DNA of 42,951 nt from a virus: the IMG/VR virus record IMGVR_UViG_3300019763_000003, positions 1-42,951 of that record, one strand, 5' to 3'. Position numbers and translations under genes: made by a program. Below, one piece after another: positions 2,284 to 16,529 of this stretch. Under the pieces are notes generated by a model. The model was not told where the DNA came from. It made no database searches and was given only the letters and a program-made list of their open reading frames with translations. Position 1 is the first letter of the stretch. Each line of letters begins with the position of its first letter.

Positions 2284-2513
2284 TCATAAATAAAGTTTTG
2301 TATAGTGTTGTTAATATTCTCATATTCAATACAGTCTAAAAACTCTTTTGTGTCTAATTCTTGAATCTCTTTTAAACTACCATATCCTGCTTTTACTAAA
2401 GACATACACGACATAGAATAATCATCTAAGTTCGTGTACTGTAAATAGTTATAATTCTGTTCTTTGACTACCCTTGTGTACCGAGTAGCCTTTCTTTCAA
2501 AACTGGAAAACAA
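2268..2513 (-). CDS. Tail assembly chaperone, frameshift extension (T part)
   Basis: An open frame of up to 81 residues that overlaps the end of the 133-residue chaperone gene by 46 bases, in the -1 frame. Its only possible start is a TTG inside the upstream gene, with no ribosome site. An overlapping second frame between the tube and tape-measure genes is the classic arrangement of lambda G/GT-type tail chaperones, made by -1 frameshifting. The T frame is open only after a TGA just upstream, so the shift must fall within about the last 20 codons of G. A T-TTT-CCA slip (about 2505-2511) would let the Phe codon re-pair perfectly. No textbook slippery heptamer is present, so the shift site is inferred. 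Confidence 0.7.
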   Translation of the reverse strand: MFSSFERKATRYTRVVKEQNYNYLQYTNLDDYSMSCMSLVKAGYGSLKEIQELDTKEFLDCIEYENINNTIQNFIYEDARN

Positions 2514-2869
2514 ACCACCATAAACATAGTATCAATATATGTTAGATAGTCATCAGGGTATTTGTCAAAATGGTTAGGCAAGTTTTTTAATGTTGCATTC
2601 TCAAATAAAACATAAGGTGCTAACATATCTTCTTTCACGCTCAAATCATCTTTTCTGATAGATAAACCAGTAATTGGATTTGGTTGTACATCATTAAAGT
2701 ATTGTATAAATGGTAATCTTTGCTTGTGTGTCATTTTAGATAGCTGATATGTTCTACCATTTATATCAGCCTTGTTATCATCATCAGCTACAGCTTTAAT
2801 CTCTTGTAATTTTGTTTTTTGTGCTATTTGAATTTCTTTTAATAATTGCATTTTTTGTTCTTCATTCAT
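2468..2869 (-). CDS. Tail assembly chaperone (G part)
   Basis: A 133-residue acidic and helical protein between the tail tube and the tape measure. Position, size and the overlapping second frame at its 3' end identify it as the tail assembly chaperone, which coats the tape measure before tube polymerisation. The start at 2869 has AAAAGGG upstream and is adjacent to the stop of the tube gene. The C-terminal residues (CFPVLKERLLGTQG) would be replaced in a frameshifted fusion. Sequence families of these chaperones diverge strongly, so the assignment rests mainly on gene order. Confidence 0.75.
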   Translation of the reverse strand: MNEEQKMQLLKEIQIAQKTKLQEIKAVADDDNKADINGRTYQLSKMTHKQRLPFIQYFNDVQPNPITGLSIRKDDLSVKEDMLAPYVLFENATLKNLPNHFDKYPDDYLTYIDTMFMVVCFPVLKERLLGTQG

Positions 2870-3306
2870 TAAATAACCCTTTTAGCGAATGCGAATCTAA
2901 TGTTATAAACTAACACTTCTTCCCCATCTTGTGTATTGATTGTATTGTCAGGCTTTGTAGTAATAGTACCACCGCTTAAATCATACGATTCAACAAAGTC
3001 CTCGCCATCTCGAGTGAAGTTTCTTTGTAGTGTTCCGTTTAATAATCCTGCACTTGCACCATTTTCGGCGTATGGATTTAAGAAAATATCATCATTTCCG
3101 TACTTGATTATATTAAGTGCCATTTCGCCAACATCGCCGTTAAGCTTGTCTTTGATAACTGTTGTCTGATTTGTTCCTAGTGTATGCCCTGTTTTTTCAT
3201 TTGGAAATGTTAAAGCTATTGTGTCGCCATCTGCAAAAGAGTTGAACGCGTAACCGTTTAAAGTTAGCGTTGTTCCCTCGACTGGTATTGTAATTTGTGA
3301 TGCCAT
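2869..3306 (-). CDS. Tail tube protein (DUF3277-like)
   Basis: A 145-residue, beta-rich protein directly after the sheath gene (4-base gap). It resembles the DUF3277 tail tube family: an N-terminal beta strand pair, a central segment around FPNEKTGHTLGTNQTTVIKDK, and a C-terminal strand. It should stack in hexameric rings to form the inner tail tube within the contractile sheath. The start at 3306 has GAGGAG at good spacing. The family call is from recognition of pattern and position, without an alignment. Confidence 0.8.
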   Translation of the reverse strand: MASQITIPVEGTTLTLNGYAFNSFADGDTIALTFPNEKTGHTLGTNQTTVIKDKLNGDVGEMALNIIKYGNDDIFLNPYAENGASAGLLNGTLQRNFTRDGEDFVESYDLSGGTITTKPDNTINTQDGEEVLVYNIRFAFAKRVI

Positions 3307-3310
3307 TTTC

Positions 3311-4828
3311 TTACTCCTCTATATTTACTAAGATATTAACTTCGTGGAAAGCCCCAGCCGTTTTTACAGCTATTTGCACTAAAGGTGCTTTTCGTTGTTC
3401 ACGCTCTGCTTGTGTTTGGTCTGCTAAAGATTGAATTTTTACATAGTAACCATTCTGTAAAATGTTTCTTTTAAATGTTTCTGGATCTCCAAAAGTATCA
3501 GCACTGTTCCAAGTTCCAGCAGCTAAGAATCCAACCTTTACAAATTGTTTTAAAACTTTAATGATCGTATCTCTTAGTAAATCGACCCCAGATTGTGTTT
3601 GTGGAACTTTAGTTGATGTTGTTCCCAAAAGATTAAAAGTATCTGTTTGTAAAGCGTCTTTTAAAGCAATGATATTATAAGATAAATCTGTATAACCGTT
3701 AGCACCATTTGCACTTAGAACTTTTGGTACATCTTTGAAGCTAACATAAGTATCTAATCCGATTTTATTAGCATTATCAAGTTCTGTATCTGTAAAGCTA
3801 TCAGGTAATTGACCAACTAACTCTTTAAGTTGCATTGTAAGAGTTGTGTTCTCTCCATTGAAATCTACTGTATGTGTTCTACTCATATACCTAGTAGCAA
3901 ATTTACGATCACCGCTTTTAGTAAATAGCATTCTTGTGTCTGTATAATTAGCTAATTTAGTGGCCCAGCATATATTAGAAGTATCTATAGTCAAGTTACT
4001 AGCAGAATCAAATACATCATAATATAGTAAATCGTTAGCTTGTGCATAAGCAGATAAAGAACTTGTTTCTAAATCTGTTGGATTATCTATAAAAGTGAAA
4101 CCTTTAAATCTAAAATCGTTAGCATTTGATACAGCTTCAAGTTTTGTTTCTAATGGTAAAGTTACACTGTCTACTCCATCAGTTACTACTGCACCTGTTC
4201 CAGCTGCTAAAGATAAAATCTCTCCTATATAAGTTCCTGTCGCTCCCTCTGTTACAAAAGTCACTAATGAAGCTGCACCTGTTGAATCTGAAGTAATAAT
4301 AATTCTTTGATCTTCTAATGTGATTGTAGCTGTAGTGATTTTAGTATTTAAAATAGTTACTAATTCATTTAAAGAAGTTATTACTCTTCCATCAATTCCA
4401 CTTACATTTACAGTAGTACCATCAATATCAATGTCAAAACTTCCGTCTTGAATAGATTGTAATAATCCGATTGCTGTAGCTTCACTTATTTGTTGTCCTG
4501 TTAAGACACCAGCTTTTGCAGGTACAATCTCTTCTGCTGCTCTATAGTAAGAAACTACGAAACGACCTCCGCTTATTTGTGTTGGATTTGGTGACTGTGC
4601 AAAAAATGCTAAAGCGTGTTGATATACAGCTGATGATGTTCCAAAAGTTGCAGCCACTGACTTTGCACTTAAAAAGCTTAATTGTCTGTGTGCTGAGTCA
4701 AAAACTCCTTCTATAAGTTGAGATGAAAATATCGTTACAATATTCATATTTGCACGACTAAGTGAAGCTCCACCAAGTGATACAGCTACAGTTACAACGC
4801 GATTTAATGAAGCGTTTACTAATTCCAT
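3311..4828 (-). CDS. Contractile tail sheath protein (DUF3383-like)
   Basis: A 505-residue protein that resembles the DUF3383 family, which occupies the sheath position in phages with this gene order. It has an N-terminal domain (about 1-130), an insertion domain rich in T, V and G (about 130-240), and a C-terminal conserved region ending in AVKTAGAFHEVNILVNIEE, similar to the handshake strands of sheath proteins. Its presence next to a tube protein makes the phage a myovirus-like particle. The ribosome site AAAAAGGAAA lies before the ATG at 4828. Base composition matches the neighbours. Confidence 0.8.
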   Translation of the reverse strand: MELVNASLNRVVTVAVSLGGASLSRANMNIVTIFSSQLIEGVFDSAHRQLSFLSAKSVAATFGTSSAVYQHALAFFAQSPNPTQISGGRFVVSYYRAAEEIVPAKAGVLTGQQISEATAIGLLQSIQDGSFDIDIDGTTVNVSGIDGRVITSLNELVTILNTKITTATITLEDQRIIITSDSTGAASLVTFVTEGATGTYIGEILSLAAGTGAVVTDGVDSVTLPLETKLEAVSNANDFRFKGFTFIDNPTDLETSSLSAYAQANDLLYYDVFDSASNLTIDTSNICWATKLANYTDTRMLFTKSGDRKFATRYMSRTHTVDFNGENTTLTMQLKELVGQLPDSFTDTELDNANKIGLDTYVSFKDVPKVLSANGANGYTDLSYNIIALKDALQTDTFNLLGTTSTKVPQTQSGVDLLRDTIIKVLKQFVKVGFLAAGTWNSADTFGDPETFKRNILQNGYYVKIQSLADQTQAEREQRKAPLVQIAVKTAGAFHEVNILVNIEE

Positions 4829-6671: not shown

Positions 6672-7019
6672 ATGGAAGATATAAAATTTAAGTACATTCA
6701 CAAAAGAGGTTTTAGTAAGATATTAAATCTTGAGGAGCTAGAATCTTATTGGACTTACGGAATAAATGACGATGACATTATCGCCAAGGTTCAATATGTA
6801 GGAATAAAAGATATAAACAAAGAAGATATTTATAACGGAGATATTATAAAAAATATAAAGACTGGTAATACTGGTAAAATTATATATTCATCAAAAAACG
6901 CATCTTTCGAGATAGAAATGATAAATGATAATAGATTTCATTATAGGATAGATTGGTTTGATGATATTAAAGTAATAGGAAACATATACGAAAATAAAGA
7001 ACTACTAGGATACAACTAA
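6672..7019 (+). CDS. YopX-domain protein 1 (cassette B)
   Basis: Encodes 115 residues with the YopX (PF09643-like) signature: YVGIKDINKEDIYNGDIIKN in the middle and a C-terminal VIGNIYENKELL. YopX proteins are common small phage proteins with a beta-barrel fold and no settled function. It is one of four such genes in this genome (see 11193, 21003 and 30919). The ATG at 6672 follows AAGGAG. The gene is transcribed from module B and is followed immediately by the next gene, with no intergenic base. Confidence 0.8.
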   Translation: MEDIKFKYIHKRGFSKILNLEELESYWTYGINDDDIIAKVQYVGIKDINKEDIYNGDIIKNIKTGNTGKIIYSSKNASFEIEMINDNRFHYRIDWFDDIKVIGNIYENKELLGYN

Positions 7020-7295
7020 ATGGATATAAAAGAAATAGCAAATACAAGTAAACTAGAAAAAAGAATCTACGGATATTTAAAAGATACAAAGCCAAATAAA
7101 TGTAGTGTATGGGATGAAGATGGTCAGTTTTGGATTGAAACAAACGAGCATTTTATTAAACGGAAACAAGAATTTAACAAAGAACAAGCATTGATTAATG
7201 AGTTTACTTGTACTAAAGAGAATATAAGTAATTTATGTATGTATTTAGAAAGTGGTATTGAGTACGAGGTTTATATTAAAAAAGCGACCGTTTAA
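7020..7295 (+). CDS. Small accessory protein, cassette B
   Basis: A 91-residue protein of unknown function that starts directly after the YopX stop codon, with AGGA ten bases upstream. It is lysine- and glutamate-rich, has two cysteines near each other in the C-terminal half and one near residue 28, and lacks signal or membrane segments. The stop codon lies in the loop of the terminator hairpin at 7283-7302. It is cotranscribed with the YopX gene. Confidence 0.65.
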   Translation: MDIKEIANTSKLEKRIYGYLKDTKPNKCSVWDEDGQFWIETNEHFIKRKQEFNKEQALINEFTCTKENISNLCMYLESGIEYEVYIKKATV

Positions 7296-7311
7296 AGTCG
7301 CTCTTTGTTTA
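7276..7311. terminator. Intrinsic terminator between cassette B and the capsid operon
   Basis: Stem AGCGAC (7283-7288) and GTCGCT (7297-7302) with an 8-base loop. Leftward, the stem is followed by a run of seven T, a strong intrinsic terminator for the capsid operon. Rightward it is followed by CTTTGTTT, which may give weaker termination of the cassette. The rightward TAA is in the loop, and the leftward TAA lies seven bases beyond the stem. Confidence 0.85.
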
Positions 7312-7495: not shown

Positions 7496-8434
7496 CTAAA
7501 CTCCTGTTAAAATTCTTCCTGAACCGCTCTCGTTCACATCAAGACCAGCAACACCAAACATAGATTCAATAGTATGTTTACTACCTAAAGTTAATTGATT
7601 GTAAATTTTTAAAGGTACTGGAATTCTCATTTGCATAGCTTGTCTATCTTTTGAATATGCAACCATTCTTTTTGTTCCTGAAATATCAGCTTTATTAGTT
7701 ACAACAAAAGAGATATTCATTGTTCTTTCTAATGCTTCTTTAACAGTATTTAATCCACCAGCTGTGTTGATAAAAGTCTTAGCCATAAGGTTAAAAGTTT
7801 CTTGATGTACTGCTATCATAGTACAAGAGAATACTTCATCGTTAAAGACTGCTGCTCTTTGATCTACAACAAGTGCTGCAACCTCTTCATACATTTCTTC
7901 GCCAGTAAGAGTACTAAATGCTCCAGTTGCTCCAGTAGATGTAAACGCATAGTTAAGTAAACCAGTTGTTTTAGTTCCATTACCAAGGTAACCGATTCTA
8001 TCAATGTTTTGTTTATACTTTTCATCGTGTGCAGCAACCATACTTGATGGTAAGTTTCTGTTTTGTAATGCCGCTTGTTCTAATTCTAAATCAGACCAAG
8101 AAGAACCAGCTTCTTTGTAAAATACTGGGATTGTATCATCTTCAGCACCTAAAGAAATTTTACCAAGAGCATCAGTAGCATTTCCAGCATCAGCAAAATC
8201 ACCCGAAATTGATTCTTTTAACTTAGTGATTGATTTAGCATAACCACCCTCATTATTAACAGTAATACCTGAACCAGTTAAGAAAGTTAATCCAGCGATT
8301 CTTTGTTTAAAAATTTCAGCAGAAATATGCTCTAAGTTTCTAGCAAGTACAATACCACCAGCACTATCTTGTTGTTTGAAATAATTTACAGCTCCATCGA
8401 ATGATTGTAAATCGTATATTTTATTTAATGTCAT
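7496..8434 (-). CDS. Major capsid protein (DUF2184-like, HK97 fold)
   Basis: A 312-residue protein resembling DUF2184, a capsid family of the HK97 fold. Features include an early helix-rich segment (AVNYFKQQDSAGGIVLARNL), a middle IPVFYKEAGSSWSDLELEQA typical of the spine-helix region, GYLGNGTKTTGLLNY, and a C-terminal IESMFGVAGLDV strand. It follows the DUF2213 protease/scaffold and cement genes, the usual capsid order. AAAGGAA precedes the ATG at 8434. Confidence 0.85.
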   Translation of the reverse strand: MTLNKIYDLQSFDGAVNYFKQQDSAGGIVLARNLEHISAEIFKQRIAGLTFLTGSGITVNNEGGYAKSITKLKESISGDFADAGNATDALGKISLGAEDDTIPVFYKEAGSSWSDLELEQAALQNRNLPSSMVAAHDEKYKQNIDRIGYLGNGTKTTGLLNYAFTSTGATGAFSTLTGEEMYEEVAALVVDQRAAVFNDEVFSCTMIAVHQETFNLMAKTFINTAGGLNTVKEALERTMNISFVVTNKADISGTKRMVAYSKDRQAMQMRIPVPLKIYNQLTLGSKHTIESMFGVAGLDVNESGSGRILTGV

Positions 8435-8445
8435 CTAATATTCCT

Positions 8446-8934
8446 TTATGATACTAATTCTTTTTTAGCAATTAACCAAACATCATTTGCTTTACCATTG
8501 TTATCCCAAAATACCCAACCAGTGTCTACATTATCAGTAGCAACTGTAGTAGCTTTACCGAAGTTTGCACCTGAACCTGAAGCATTAACCGCGTAAACTT
8601 TACCGTATTTAGTAGGAGTTTGACCAGTTACAACATCAACTGTTGCTAGTCCAGTACTTATAACTTCCGCTGCTGTATCAATAACTGCACCAGTATTTTT
8701 GTATACTACTGTTCCAATTGAGCCTGAAATTAATCGTCTTGAAATTCCCGCAATTTGTGGAGTTGCTGAACCATCTAAATTATCAACTGAACCAGTATCA
8801 AACTTTACGAATCTACCCTGAATCAAGCCATCTTCAAAAGTTGGATGAGCTAATGTCAATCCATTAGTATTTGGAAGTAGTTCCCCTGAACCAAGTCCAG
8901 CGCTTTCTGCTAGTACTGTATTATCAAATGCCAT
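8446..8934 (-). CDS. Capsid cement / decoration protein
   Basis: A 162-residue, glycine-, threonine- and valine-rich beta protein without cysteines, between the scaffold/protease gene and the major capsid gene. Composition and position match phage structural cement proteins (DUF2190 or gp24-like), which stabilise the capsid shell from outside. GAGGAG precedes the ATG at 8934, which overlaps the stop of the upstream gene. Confidence 0.65.
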   Translation of the reverse strand: MAFDNTVLAESAGLGSGELLPNTNGLTLAHPTFEDGLIQGRFVKFDTGSVDNLDGSATPQIAGISRRLISGSIGTVVYKNTGAVIDTAAEVISTGLATVDVVTGQTPTKYGKVYAVNASGSGANFGKATTVATDNVDTGWVFWDNNGKANDVWLIAKKELVS

Positions 8935-9455
8935 TATAATTTCTCCTCTGCCATATTTGCAAATTTTCCACCAGTGTTAGGTGTTCCTGTGAATCCGTCA
9001 AACGCTTTAGAATGACTATCTTTAATTGCTTGTTGTTTACCAACTGTCGAACCAACAATAGTTTCAAAAACACCGTCGATAAACTCTTCTGATTTATCAG
9101 TTAAGTCAATTTTAGAGTTTGCACCAATAATAGACTTTTTAATATCAGATACAGAATCAGTTGATTTAACTTCTACTTTTAGTTTTGAAGCTGTATCAAG
9201 TAAAGCAACTTTTGCTGAAACTAAAGCGTCAAGTGTAGAATCAGAAGTTTTCTTTTTTTCTTCTTCCATATCTTCTTTCATTTTCTCTTTTTCGCCTTTA
9301 AGCTTTTCAGCTTCATCCTCAGCCTTTTTTTTCTCTTCTTCTTTTTTAATCATATCTTCATCTAAAGATTTGATTTTAGAATTAAGACTTCCAATATGTT
9401 TAGCAACACAATCTGTTATCTCGTGTTCTACGCCATCTACAGTAACTTTTGCCAT
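8934..9455 (-). CDS. Nested in-frame scaffold protein
   Basis: An in-frame ATG at 9455 (codon 203 of the DUF2213 gene) is preceded by AAAGGAAATGTA, the same kind of ribosome site as used by the other genes. Initiation here would give 173 residues: MAKVTVDGVEHEI, then a long charged coiled coil (about 25-75, K/E-rich), then a helical C terminus. This matches the lambda C/Nu3 arrangement, where a separate scaffold is made from the 3' half of the protease gene. The start is inferred from the ribosome site and the domain boundary. Confidence 0.65.
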   Translation of the reverse strand: MAKVTVDGVEHEITDCVAKHIGSLNSKIKSLDEDMIKKEEEKKKAEDEAEKLKGEKEKMKEDMEEEKKKTSDSTLDALVSAKVALLDTASKLKVEVKSTDSVSDIKKSIIGANSKIDLTDKSEEFIDGVFETIVGSTVGKQQAIKDSHSKAFDGFTGTPNTGGKFANMAEEKL

Positions 9456-10061
9456 TACATTTCCTTTTGTTTTATTTTCAGTATTAATTATAGCAAGTTC
9501 ATCTGCTGTTAGTTTGCACTCTCCCTCACAACGACCTTTGTCTACTAGGGCAATATGATTAATCTTTATATCGGTTTGCTTAAACATATATTTGCGACCT
9601 TGAAACTCTCCGTCCTCTTGTACTAGTTGCTGCTGGTATCCAGGTGAAAGTTGGACTTTACCACTCAAAGCCTTATTGATAGTACGCTCATCCTTTATGG
9701 TCATACGACCTTTTATATAATCAATTCCATCTTTATTAAATGTTTCAATACTAGACACACTTCCTTTTCCTAATTCCTTTTCATTCCCTACTGTCAGGAA
9801 GTTTTTTGGATGATCATCACTTATTGACTTATTTATATATGTATCTAAGCTCTCTTGTTTTAGTACCTCTTCTGCTGGACGATATACACCGTATTTTTTC
9901 ATTGGATCAAGATTAAACTCTTTTATAATCTCGTCACCTAATTCCATACCGTAATACTCTTGTACGCCTGTTCTAGCAATTACTCCGCTTACTTCTAAAT
10001 ATCCCGTGCTTTCATCAATCTTTGTTTTAAAGTCACTAAAGCCTTTATCTATTGTATACAT
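8934..10061 (-). CDS. Prohead protease with C-terminal scaffold (DUF2213-like)
   Basis: Encodes 375 residues from the ATG at 10061, which overlaps the upstream TGA and follows AGGAG; a TTG one codon earlier is less likely. The N-terminal part (about 1-190) resembles DUF2213: SDDHPKNFL supplies a histidine, KVQLSPGYQQQL a serine, and a conserved NHIALV strand follows, compatible with a serine protease of the capsid-maturation type. The C-terminal part (about 203-375) is an acidic/basic coiled coil. An internal ATG with its own ribosome site lies at the junction (see 8934-9455). Confidence 0.75.
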   Translation of the reverse strand: MYTIDKGFSDFKTKIDESTGYLEVSGVIARTGVQEYYGMELGDEIIKEFNLDPMKKYGVYRPAEEVLKQESLDTYINKSISDDHPKNFLTVGNEKELGKGSVSSIETFNKDGIDYIKGRMTIKDERTINKALSGKVQLSPGYQQQLVQEDGEFQGRKYMFKQTDIKINHIALVDKGRCEGECKLTADELAIINTENKTKGNVMAKVTVDGVEHEITDCVAKHIGSLNSKIKSLDEDMIKKEEEKKKAEDEAEKLKGEKEKMKEDMEEEKKKTSDSTLDALVSAKVALLDTASKLKVEVKSTDSVSDIKKSIIGANSKIDLTDKSEEFIDGVFETIVGSTVGKQQAIKDSHSKAFDGFTGTPNTGGKFANMAEEKL

Positions 10062-10567
10062 CAATTATCTCCTAATTTTATTCCACTTGCTGATACTTGA
10101 AAGTAGTCTAGACCGCTTAAATCATCTTGAATCTCAAAATATAAACCCTCTTTAGTAGAAACAATACCATTACCAAATGTTTGTATCATATCCCAGTTTC
10201 CGTTCAAGATAGATACTGTATCGCCTTGTATCTTTACAGAATGAATACTTGTATCAGAACCAACGAGTAACATATCTCCATTACTTTTAATGACTTGCTG
10301 CCCATCTATATTAAATATAACACCATTTGCTAATGTTGGAACATTTCCGAACTTTGTTATGCCAATCGCTACATCTGTTGCTATCAAAAAATCTATTCTC
10401 TTTAATATAAAGTTATCTACTGGTAAAGTTTCTAATGTAAATCGTAATGGAGTAGTGCTACCATCTACCGACATATTAGAACTACCATCTTTCATAAACT
10501 TCACATAGAATATATCATCGTTTCGTATCTGTCTTATTTCTGTTACTGCATCATTAGAACTTGCCAT
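10061..10567 (-). CDS. Virion structural protein, beta-rich, function unknown
   Basis: A 168-residue protein with repeated beta-strand patterns and glycine/aspartate turns, beginning MASSNDAVTEIRQIRNDD. It is the first late gene left of cassette C and is translationally coupled to the protease gene (TGATG overlap). It may be a capsid-associated or head fibre-like protein, but no family is recognised. The 16-bp block lies two bases from the ATG and supplies AAAAGG. The first 14 coding bases are the same as those of the spike gene starting at 38755. Confidence 0.6.
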   Translation of the reverse strand: MASSNDAVTEIRQIRNDDIFYVKFMKDGSSNMSVDGSTTPLRFTLETLPVDNFILKRIDFLIATDVAIGITKFGNVPTLANGVIFNIDGQQVIKSNGDMLLVGSDTSIHSVKIQGDTVSILNGNWDMIQTFGNGIVSTKEGLYFEIQDDLSGLDYFQVSASGIKLGDN

Positions 10568-10671: not shown

Positions 10672-10866
10672 ATGGAAATGACATATAAAGAAGCTGTTTT
10701 AATTTCAGCTCAGCACATAGTAGACTTTATAGATGATTACGATAAAGATGATGTTGCTAACATACTAAAAGACTTGAAGATTAACTTATTGGCTTGCGTT
10801 AATGGTTTTAGTAATGAACGGATTGGAATATTAGATGAAGATAAATTATTTTATGAAGAAATATAG
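10672..10866 (+). CDS. Small acidic protein, cassette C
   Basis: A 64-residue acidic helical protein (MEMTYKEAVLISAQHIVDF...) of unknown function, first of five genes in cassette C. The ATG at 10672 follows AAAGGATAATTAG. It has one cysteine and no membrane segment or signal. It is cotranscribed from module C with the lipoprotein and YopX genes. Confidence 0.65.
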   Translation: MEMTYKEAVLISAQHIVDFIDDYDKDDVANILKDLKINLLACVNGFSNERIGILDEDKLFYEEI

Positions 10867-10875
10867 GATAGTTGA

Positions 10876-11196
10876 ATGACTAAATACATAATAGCAATAC
10901 CAATTGTATTTTTAATTGGTTGCTCTAAAAATGAAACTCACAATGTAGTTGAATATCAAGGAGTTAAGTGTAAAAGCTTAGGCGATGTTGGTGTTGTGTG
11001 GGATGGTAGGAATTATATTTGTAAATATAGCAATGTTGAATCAAATCATATTCCTATTAAAAGAGTTGCCTCTAGTGGGTGTGAAACTGAAATAACAGAG
11101 ATATTCACTTCTAAGTCAAGTGGAAAAATTACGGTGTGTAAAGGGAAAATTCTCACGGGTAATCAAAAGACTAAAATTGTAAGGATTAATAAATGA
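10876..11196 (+). CDS. Lipoprotein, candidate superinfection-exclusion factor
   Basis: A 106-residue protein with a short lipoprotein signal: a basic start (MTK), a hydrophobic stretch of about 10 residues and the lipobox LIGC with Cys16. The mature part has four more cysteines (about 32, 49, 69, 88), compatible with two disulphides in the periplasm. Phage-encoded small lipoproteins expressed as morons often block superinfection at the cell surface. That role is inference here. The gene overlaps the next by four bases (ATGA). Confidence 0.7.
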   Translation: MTKYIIAIPIVFLIGCSKNETHNVVEYQGVKCKSLGDVGVVWDGRNYICKYSNVESNHIPIKRVASSGCETEITEIFTSKSSGKITVCKGKILTGNQKTKIVRINK

Positions 11197-11558
11197 ATGA
11201 GTTTATAGTATGGCACAAATTAATAAAAGAGTTTGTATTGCCACATAAGTTTTTAGTATTTGATGATAATGGAGTAGCTGACAATGATGATTGTATTATT
11301 TGCAACTACATCGGACTAAAAGACACAAACAATAATAAGATATATGCTGATAGTAGTATTTTTGAGCTTGAAAATTTTCCATATAACTATAAGGCATATT
11401 TTACATATAGTGAATATTATTTGGGATATTGTCTAGTATTGCTACGAGATGGAGTAAGCATAGAAGCTTCTACTTTTCCTTACTGTCCAGATACAATGTC
11501 AAATTTTAAAATAATCGACACTATCCAAGAAAACAAATTAGGATTAATAAATGAATAA
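11193..11558 (+). CDS. YopX-like protein 2 (cassette C, divergent)
   Basis: A 121-residue protein with the core YopX signature YIGLKDTNNNKIYADSSIFE after an N-terminal arm (MNEFIVWHKLIKEFVL), but with a diverged C-terminal half lacking the usual GNIYEN ending. The ATG at 11193 overlaps the lipoprotein stop, so translation is coupled. It is one of four YopX-type genes in this genome and the most divergent of them. Confidence 0.65.
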   Translation: MNEFIVWHKLIKEFVLPHKFLVFDDNGVADNDDCIICNYIGLKDTNNNKIYADSSIFELENFPYNYKAYFTYSEYYLGYCLVLLRDGVSIEASTFPYCPDTMSNFKIIDTIQENKLGLINE

Positions 11559-14509: not shown

Positions 14510-14539
14510 GTTACTTGTGGTTACTAGTTGTTACTAGTC
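14510..14539. repeat. Three tandem 10-bp GTTACT repeats
   Basis: GTTACTTGTG, GTTACTAGTT and GTTACTAGTC in succession, overlapping the last codon and stop of terL. The 10-bp period puts the GTTACT cores on one face of the helix. A related pair (AGTAACAAAT-AGTAACA on the other strand) lies at 29731-29747, also over a gene's stop codon. They could be protein-binding sites or a packaging-related signal; nothing decides. Confidence 0.6.
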
Positions 14540-15943
14540 GAACATTGAGGATGTATAGCCTTGTGATTTGACTTGTGTTAATTCTATAGCGTCCATCATA
14601 GGGTCGATTGCGTCATCGTGTTTCCCATTTGGAAAGGCTAATGACTCATTAATAAGTTCTTGTATATCGTTTATATTTTCATTTAAATAAACTCTACCAG
14701 CTTCTATATGTGGCGAAAAGTCCATTACTCTTGATATTTTATCCGTGTTCCTTTGAATAGCCCCTATCTTTAGCTTATCTTGCTTTAAATCTTGTATTAG
14801 TGAACTACCACTTGACTTATCTTCTATGTAAAACTTTCGTAACGATACTTTTCGATTATCCTGTTTGTAGTTATCCCATTTGTTATAAAAGGTTTTTGCT
14901 GTTTGCCTTAGTTGAGGTGCTTCAAATTTATCTCTTATCATATCAAGTAAATAAATATCATTACTCTTAGAAACACCCCAGCATTGCATAACTGTATAAT
15001 CATTTACTTCTTTTGTCTTTTGTGCTGTATCTACAGTTATGATTAAGTGTGTTAAATTTGGTAATACAGTCCACCATTTAAACCAGTCATACTTCATCAG
15101 GTTACCACCTTTAATAACTGGCTCTTGCTGAAATTGTGAATAAAAATAAGACTTGTTAGAATCTCTCATTTGTAGTAATCTTTCAGTAGGATAGAACTCT
15201 TCCCAAAAAGATATTTTATCATCTTCATCAAAAGCTTTTACTCTTAAAAATTCCCATTCTTTTAAGTCTTTAAATAAGTTCTGCTCTATGCAACCAACAA
15301 GATCATCTGTGTGTAGTCGCTGCATAATTATTATTATTGGTACATTTGGATTATTTACCCTATTGGATAAAGTTGTTTCGTACCACTCTTTTACTTTTTC
15401 TAGCTTAAGAAGTGAATTGGCATCGTCAGGCTTTAGTGGATCATCTACTATAATGCAACCGCCCCAATCATCAGAACTCTTTAATCCAGCACCGTGTCCT
15501 GTTATCTGCCCAAAAGATGAAACAGCATATACTCCACCGTTTTTATTTGTTTTCCATAATTTCTTTGATTGAGTATCTTTTTTAGTATCTACCCCAAACA
15601 TTGATTTATGCTCTTGAGAGTTCATCATATCTCTTATCTGTTGCGATGAATTAGAAACGAGTGTGTCTGAATATGATGTCATTATGTATTTAGCTTGTGG
15701 GTGTTTTGTTATGGTCCATTCGATGAAAGTATTTACTATTTCAGTTTTACCAGCTCTTGGTGGCATATTGATAACTAGCTTTTTTATATTTCCCCTATAC
15801 ACTTCTATTAGCTTTTTGCATATACTTATATGTGATTCTGTTAGTATTACTTTTGAGTTGTATTTGGTTTTAAAGCTCCATCTTAAATAACGGATGAAAT
15901 CTTGTAAGAGTATCTCCCTAAGTGCCGTTAGGTTAATACTCAT
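14534..15943 (-). CDS. terL: Terminase large subunit
   Basis: Encodes 469 residues from the ATG at 15943; a TTG two codons earlier is less likely. The packaging ATPase has a Walker A-type loop MPPRAGKTE (about 60-68), a Walker B CIIVDDP (about 163-169), and the coupling motif QRLHTDD (about 208-214). The C-terminal nuclease has ITVDTAQ (acidic residue at about 305) and GKHDDAIDPMMDAI near the end, the RNase H-like metal site. It moves DNA through the portal and cuts it. It overlaps terS by about 11 bases and is followed by a tandem GTTACT repeat and the inserted gene 13972-14424. Confidence 0.93.
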   Translation of the reverse strand: MSINLTALREILLQDFIRYLRWSFKTKYNSKVILTESHISICKKLIEVYRGNIKKLVINMPPRAGKTEIVNTFIEWTITKHPQAKYIMTSYSDTLVSNSSQQIRDMMNSQEHKSMFGVDTKKDTQSKKLWKTNKNGGVYAVSSFGQITGHGAGLKSSDDWGGCIIVDDPLKPDDANSLLKLEKVKEWYETTLSNRVNNPNVPIIIIMQRLHTDDLVGCIEQNLFKDLKEWEFLRVKAFDEDDKISFWEEFYPTERLLQMRDSNKSYFYSQFQQEPVIKGGNLMKYDWFKWWTVLPNLTHLIITVDTAQKTKEVNDYTVMQCWGVSKSNDIYLLDMIRDKFEAPQLRQTAKTFYNKWDNYKQDNRKVSLRKFYIEDKSSGSSLIQDLKQDKLKIGAIQRNTDKISRVMDFSPHIEAGRVYLNENINDIQELINESLAFPNGKHDDAIDPMMDAIELTQVKSQGYTSSMFD

Positions 15944-16529
15944 CTTCAAAGTTCTTTAATGTGTTTGACACTATTTCTTGATTAAGTTCTAGGCTTTGCT
16001 GGGTGTTTGAGTTATTTACTTGTATTTGACTGTTAGCGTGTCTTTGATTAACTCCTAGGGTAATTGAAGCTTTGTCTGTACCATTTAATATATTCAATGT
16101 ATCGCTTGTATTAATTTTTCTCTTCTCAAACTTTTGCATCCCATCTCCTACATTGATTTTATCTTCAACATAACCCTCTTCTAATATATTATTGTTTGCA
16201 GCTAGGGAATTAATTACAACACTATTGATTAACCTTTCTGCATAAAGTTTACTTTCTACCTGTTTGTTTACTTCAATTTGTTCACTTTTTGTCAAATGTT
16301 TACTTTTTTCTTCTTGTAATTTTTTATAATCACGATGAATACTAACTTCATCGTCTATAATTTTGTTTACTTTGTTTACTTTTGGTTGTATGTATCTATT
16401 AACCATTCCTTTAGATATTCCAAATTTATCTGCTAATTGTTGCTGTGTGTATTTCTTTTTATTGTTCTCATCTACTTCAATACTTAATAGCTTTAGTTCT
16501 TCTTTTTGCGTATCTGTTAATTTAGCCAT
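15933..16529 (-). CDS. terS: Terminase small subunit
   Basis: A 198-residue protein with an N-terminal helix-turn-helix (TQQQLADKFGISKGMVNRYIQP, cut here by its loop), a central helical segment rich in K and E (about 70-110), and a polar C-terminal tail that could contact the large subunit. It lies directly upstream of and overlaps terL, the standard position for the DNA-recognition subunit. AGGAG precedes the ATG at 16529, and that ribosome site lies inside the end of the 34-residue membrane peptide gene. Confidence 0.75.
   Translation of the reverse strand: MAKLTDTQKEELKLLSIEVDENNKKKYTQQQLADKFGISKGMVNRYIQPKVNKVNKIIDDEVSIHRDYKKLQEEKSKHLTKSEQIEVNKQVESKLYAERLINSVVINSLAANNNILEEGYVEDKINVGDGMQKFEKRKINTSDTLNILNGTDKASITLGVNQRHANSQIQVNNSNTQQSLELNQEIVSNTLKNFEDEY

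Follow-up and report, generated by a model that had tools for sequence, protein, structure and literature searches.

Does the DUF2213 gene in the head module of this virus encode one protein, or does it encode a head maturation protease together with a scaffold protein that is translated in the same frame from a second, internal start? The stretch of DNA analysed here (the window) is a virus record of 42,951 bases with 30% G+C, in which the minus-strand head module runs in the order portal, MuF, a 168-aa gene, the DUF2213 gene, a 162-aa gene and the major capsid protein. The DUF2213 protein matched PF09979 with 137 bits against a curated cut-off of 22, and the head-gene neighbourhood expected for DUF2213/phrog_530 (portal, MuF, protease, small gene and PF09950 capsid) was present. 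The ATG of the gene at 10061 overlaps the stop of the preceding gene (TGATG); the ORF finder opens the frame at a TTG at 10064, and the numbering of codon 203 counts from the ATG at 10061. The original prediction had placed an internal start at an ATG at codon 203 behind AAAGGAAATGTA, and both the gene and the site were located as claimed (Table 1). From the evidence set out below we infer that the DUF2213 gene is very probably a nested protease/scaffold pair translated from two starts.

Table 1 Coordinates of the DUF2213 gene, its internal start and neighbouring features in the window
Feature	Position	Strand	Remarks
Full-length DUF2213 head maturation protease-scaffold gene, 375 aa	8934..10061	-	PF09979 E 7.1e-40; phrog_530 E 7.1e-74
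Protease domain, residues 18-184, predicted T4 gp21/assemblin-like fold	9510..10010	-	Pfam range; model pLDDT ~97
His84 codon, candidate catalytic residue	9810..9812	-	Invariant in alignment A4 (62 sequences); putative role
Ser139 codon, candidate nucleophile	9645..9647	-	Invariant in alignment A4; putative role
Asn168-His169 codons, NH motif, alignment anchor	9555..9560	-	Invariant in alignment A4
Disordered linker, residues 188-201; codons double as internal Shine-Dalgarno	9459..9500	-	pLDDT <50
Internal Shine-Dalgarno AAGGA, spacer AATGTA	9462..9466	-	-5.6 kcal/mol; AAAGG(A/T) kept in L189, L190, L192 and L193
Internal start codon ATG (codon 203)	9453..9455	-	Behind AAAGGAAATGTA; Met in 54/60 rows of alignment A4 with a residue there
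Nested putative scaffold ORF, 173 aa, start MAKVTVDG, in frame, same stop	8934..9455	-	phrog_530 positions 209-357; predicted to fold alone at mean pLDDT 88
Next gene, 162 aa, phrog_35628, unknown function, between scaffold and capsid	8446..8934	-	Start overlaps stop (TAATG)
Major capsid protein PF09950, expected scaffold partner	7496..8434	-	Profile matches

Other features of the region were recorded as well. Small plus-strand ORFs with ribosome sites lie at 6672-7295 and 10672-11558, surrounded by the minus-strand genes of the head operon in the manner of inserted cargo, and the first pair is followed by a terminator-like hairpin at 7283-7302. The ORF of the terminase large subunit (14534-15949, minus strand) is listed with a TTG start and a weak ribosome site (-0.9), and its true start may differ.

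Pairing of the internal Shine-Dalgarno (SD) sequence with the anti-Shine-Dalgarno was calculated at -5.6 kcal/mol, compared to a median of -5.4 kcal/mol for the 76 called starts of the window, and is stronger than 55% of them, in agreement with the claim that this ribosome site equals those of separate genes. Of the window's 208 internal ATGs, 13 have an equal or better site, and when the codons of its DUF2213 gene were shuffled synonymously 200 times, the strength of the site was reached in 29.5% of trials (p = 0.295). Taken alone, the internal site of the window is unremarkable, and it is the relatives that settle the question.

To this end, DUF2213 loci were gathered from phage records, IMG/VR and bacterial genomes. 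A DUF2213 ORF was present in 181 loci (L170 had none), represented at 80% identity by 110 genes, of which 106 were usable after L173 and L174 (without the anchor) and L164 and L169 (without the motif) had been dropped. Serratia phage KKP 3709 (L184, OR067833.1) and Pseudomonas phage Epa15 (L183, MT413450.1) were kept out of the counts: the DUF2213 gene of the former (2465-4005) is split over several frames, probably by sequencing errors, and in the latter the submitted ORFs lie on the opposite strand over the DUF2213 and capsid region, although the coding strand has an uninterrupted 488-aa DUF2213 frame. For numbering, the NH motif towards the end of the protease served as the reference point, with the boundary stretch defined as 8-75 residues beyond it, the best in-frame ATG per stretch taken as the statistic and an SD at or below -5 kcal/mol regarded as strong.

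A boundary ATG with a strong SD was found in 91 of 105 non-redundant DUF2213 genes (at or below -6 in 71 and at or below -8 in 32), compared to 18/106, 8/106, 12/103 and 15/80 for four other stretches of equal length in the same genes. The boundary stretch contains 164 ATGs versus 81-119 in the other stretches, an excess which is part of the signal itself. With clustering at 50% identity, 38 of 50 genes carried such a start. Synonymous shuffling within each gene (100 genes) gave a mean SD of -5.06, compared to -7.14 observed (z -10.7), and at most 65 genes fell at or below -5 in any of 200 shuffles, compared to the 91 observed.

The methionine itself is conserved in an alignment of the window with 61 relatives, picked by length and start filters (A4), in which the runner-up column outside the N-terminal start has Met in 14 of 62 rows, compared to 54 of 60 at position 203. 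An eight-sequence alignment (A1), in which too little was conserved, was replaced by the narrower A2 and A3, and a further alignment (A5) holds the window and 47 of 64 nested parts. A direct search of viral and genome contigs using the window protein returned no relatives; near relatives were found via the capsid and portal proteins, and all four distinct genes (L189, L190, L192 and L193, with SD energies of -5.6, -4.9, -5.6 and -5.6, respectively) keep AAAGG(A/T) and the ATG behind differing linkers. The gene in L194 is the same as that in L193, and L191 (IMGVR_UViG_3300019754_000012), which stops short of the gene, has a portal 100% identical to that of the window and probably comes from this virus, or one all but identical to it, in a different sample. 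At the boundary in Vibrio phage VBM1 there is likewise an ATG, preceded by an SD of -5.6.

Codon usage around the boundary start was compared in pairs of genes sharing no more than 70% DNA identity downstream of the start, so that recent recombinants were excluded (411 pairs from 96 genes, the pairs not being independent). Where the residue is the same, codon identity was 0.74 at codons -7 to -2, compared to 0.43 at -25 to -9 and 0.37 at +1 to +40; it reached 92-95% at positions -7, -4 and -3 and only 24% at -5. Synonymous constraint peaks on the codons of the ribosome site. In 81 of 90 genes, the RNA from -30 to +30 around the boundary ATG has less structure than the RNA at the remaining internal ATGs (Wilcoxon p 4e-15). 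Gapped alignment of L004 with L007 showed proteases that are 59% identical and scaffolds that are 99% identical, and their DNA is near-identical from about 28 bases before the ATG; this breakpoint lies upstream of the SD, and therefore the SD moves together with the scaffold. The same pattern was observed for L055 and L062 (73% protease, 90% scaffold). Natural recombinants exchange ribosome site and scaffold as a unit, which is the behaviour expected of an autonomous cistron.

The nested start is not universal, because some relatives are without a usable boundary start or carry other tails. Among the 17 representatives in the set of exceptions, four (L002, L014, L142 and L181) have the boundary ATG with a weaker SD, and in two others (L122 and L144) GTG replaces ATG at the same place, with a strong SD (-7.4 and -8.6, respectively), before the scaffold. 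In the clostridial L154 (start at 3748) a long linker insertion displaces the site, and AAAGGAG with an ATG (-8.7) still precedes the scaffold. Only weak ATG candidates were observed in L155 and L177, no usable boundary start in L136, L137 and L182, and a different tail in L139, L161, L164, L166 and L169.

L136, L137 and L182 favour another explanation, in which there is a single product and the scaffold is released when the protease cuts the linker, as with gpO in phage P2; AAGGA and the Met would then stand there by chance or be left over from an ancient gene fusion. Without a boundary start, these versions of the gene must work via cleavage alone. In addition, the linker of the DUF2213 protein is predicted to be disordered, and the window's own site lies within chance. 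However, a relic would neither hold the SD codons frozen in pairs with diverged flanks nor hold Met in nine-tenths of the alignment rows, and it would not give GTG replacements with the SD intact, so that a single product appears quite improbable as the general case. Alternatively, the scaffold could be made from its own mRNA through a promoter inside the gene, as in herpesviruses, where an internal promoter gives the scaffold-only UL26.5 transcript within UL26, with the internal ribosome site serving that transcript. The parallel gains from the similar protease fold, but a crude consensus scan gave no minus-strand promoter-like site between 9456 and 9800 and 26 promoter-like matches in the region compared to 31 expected from shuffles, and such a transcript would need the internal start anyway; we regard this route as highly unlikely. 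Hardly any weight can be given to the proposal that conservation of the Met and of the purine-rich codons stems from needs of the linker protein (Lys/Gly/Glu, with Met for folding or cleavage) and not from translation, for which it can be said that AAA GGA and GAG GAG encode residues frequent in linkers and that about 53 of 100 genes attain -5 through synonymous shuffling by itself, since the SD persists though the residues preceding Met vary among relatives, and the synonymous constraint peaks on the SD codons with the excess over shuffles given above.

Structural modelling of the full protein in AlphaFold2 (mean pLDDT 86) gave a protease at residues 9-185 and, after the disordered linker, a second domain beginning at residue 203 with a strand (204-208), a hairpin strand (211-215) and then a 55-residue helix (217-271). 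The original prediction had put the start exactly at the end of the protease domain, which is nearly correct given that the Pfam DUF2213 match stops at 184 and the modelled protease at 185, with the linker in between. It had also put the beginning of the coiled coil at the ATG, and this part did not stand; the nested product would open with a beta-hairpin and not a coiled coil, because the modelled strands precede the long helix. The nested product, predicted to fold alone, would consist of the beta-hairpin, then the long coiled-coil helix and further helices.

On structural realignment, the best match of the protease model was the T4 gp21 prohead protease (5jbl; Z 11.4 over 130 residues, 2.5 A), followed by the varicella-zoster virus (VZV) protease (1vzv; Z 9.6); further herpes proteases gave Z 6-9, in the same comparison of a predicted model in which unrelated MCE-domain rows gave about Z 6. 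A Foldseek search of the whole model against the PDB returned nothing below 1e-3, with the HCMV protease as the top match (5.8e-3). As modelled, the protease shares the fold of capsid-assembly proteases (T4 gp21/herpes assemblin), and the invariance of H84, S139 and H169 in 62 sequences is consistent with a putative Ser-His-based site. In T4 the scaffold has a separate gene (22), unlike the nested layout. When the nested domain was searched with Foldseek against viral models, a single match below 1e-3 was obtained. It is a protein of 161 aa from Salmonella phage 36, equal in length to the nested product of L009; the same phage has a second, separate protein of 201 aa that matches the protease half (entries A0A0N7CFB6 and A0A0N7CEU6). 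Possibly the gene has been divided naturally at the nested start in this phage, which is taken as a lead only.

Nesting of this kind has precedents. In lambda C/Nu3, as in the window, the scaffold ORF lies in frame in the 3' part of a head protease gene and shares its stop; record J02459 marks nu3 within C, at codon 239, and its SD is -6.9 on the same measure. Lambda C, however, is a Peptidase_S49, unlike the window gene, which has no S49 (hhalign probability 0.3%) and whose protease is predicted to have the T4 gp21/assemblin-like fold, so that lambda, named as the precedent in the original prediction, serves as one for the mechanism and not for homology. Similarly, Mu I/Z and KS10 gp28/gp29 are nested pairs of the same kind as that of the window, record NC_000929 noting for Mu Z a 'start site internal to gene I' (SD -7.4), while Mu I belongs to PF10123 (Mu-like_Pro), unlike the window gene, and is without detectable sequence similarity to DUF2213 (hhalign probability 0.2%). 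In-frame nesting of protease and scaffold is therefore already known as a kind from lambda and Mu, to whose proteases the DUF2213 protease is not detectably related at the sequence level.

The only direct evidence of scaffold function comes from a distant relative, Pseudomonas phage Pa193, whose gp24 ('scaffolding protein', PDB 9b40, chain 9b40_G) was matched by profile with an E value of 5e-31. In the available part of its description, gp24 is called a putative scaffold inside the capsid, residues 286-326 of which form a pentameric helix-turn-helix under the five-fold vertex (PMC11042391), and these residues fall well after the boundary Met in the profile alignment. The same part of that source treats gp24 as one 478-residue protein, does not use the word protease in the main text, and has the authors stating that cleavage of gp24 cannot be judged (PMC11042391).

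The proposed two products in one frame are supported by the Met column, the conservation of the SD, the synonymous constraint, the exchange of modules and the second predicted domain. For such a nested protease/scaffold pair, ribosomes starting at 10061 would make the full protein, consisting of the assemblin-like protease, the disordered linker and the coiled-coil scaffold domain, and those starting at the internal site would yield only the scaffold domain. Numerous copies of the scaffold and few protease-scaffold fusions may then co-assemble via the shared domain, whereby the fusion would bring the protease into the procapsid, and the protease would later cut the scaffold and itself. Self-cleavage of the fusion may also release scaffold and is perhaps the sole route in the few genes without the start.

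A comparable arrangement is found in herpesvirus UL26/UL26.5, where, according to the accessible part of one account, a protease-scaffold fusion and a scaffold-only product share a common C-terminus, and the scaffold derived from the fusion makes up about 10% of the total in HSV (PMC12474303). The same portion describes UL26.5 as a gene starting inside UL26, not as a nested ribosome site (PMC12474303), and the likeness of the herpes protease fold to that of DUF2213 covers the protease part only. It is conceivable, if unlikely, that nesting is ancestral to viruses with assemblin-type proteases, DUF2213 phages and herpesviruses having inherited a rare fusion and an abundant scaffold-only product. 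Were this doubtful reading correct, only the route to the internal start would have changed, and lambda C/Nu3, with its S49 protease, would be independent.

A nested CDS was marked in none of 21 usable annotated phage regions, each of which had one full-length CDS only (L009, L015, L178 and L182, which are unannotated, were excluded, as were L183 and L184). In records the whole gene goes by names such as 'capsid protein' or 'major head subunit precursor'. Our search of the open-licence literature found no report of an internal start or nested scaffold in DUF2213 genes, and a report elsewhere is possible. Matches to the window's DUF2213 protein were obtained in 1734 of 50,697 phage records, and relatives are present in bacterial genomes from Proteobacteria to Clostridia. 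The nested reading would thus name the scaffold protein of a very common head module and yield a concrete prediction for cultured laboratory phages. With this layout, one gene could keep proteases few and scaffolds many, and a further example would be gained of a nested scaffold accompanying a head protease, here one with a T4 gp21/herpesvirus-like fold.
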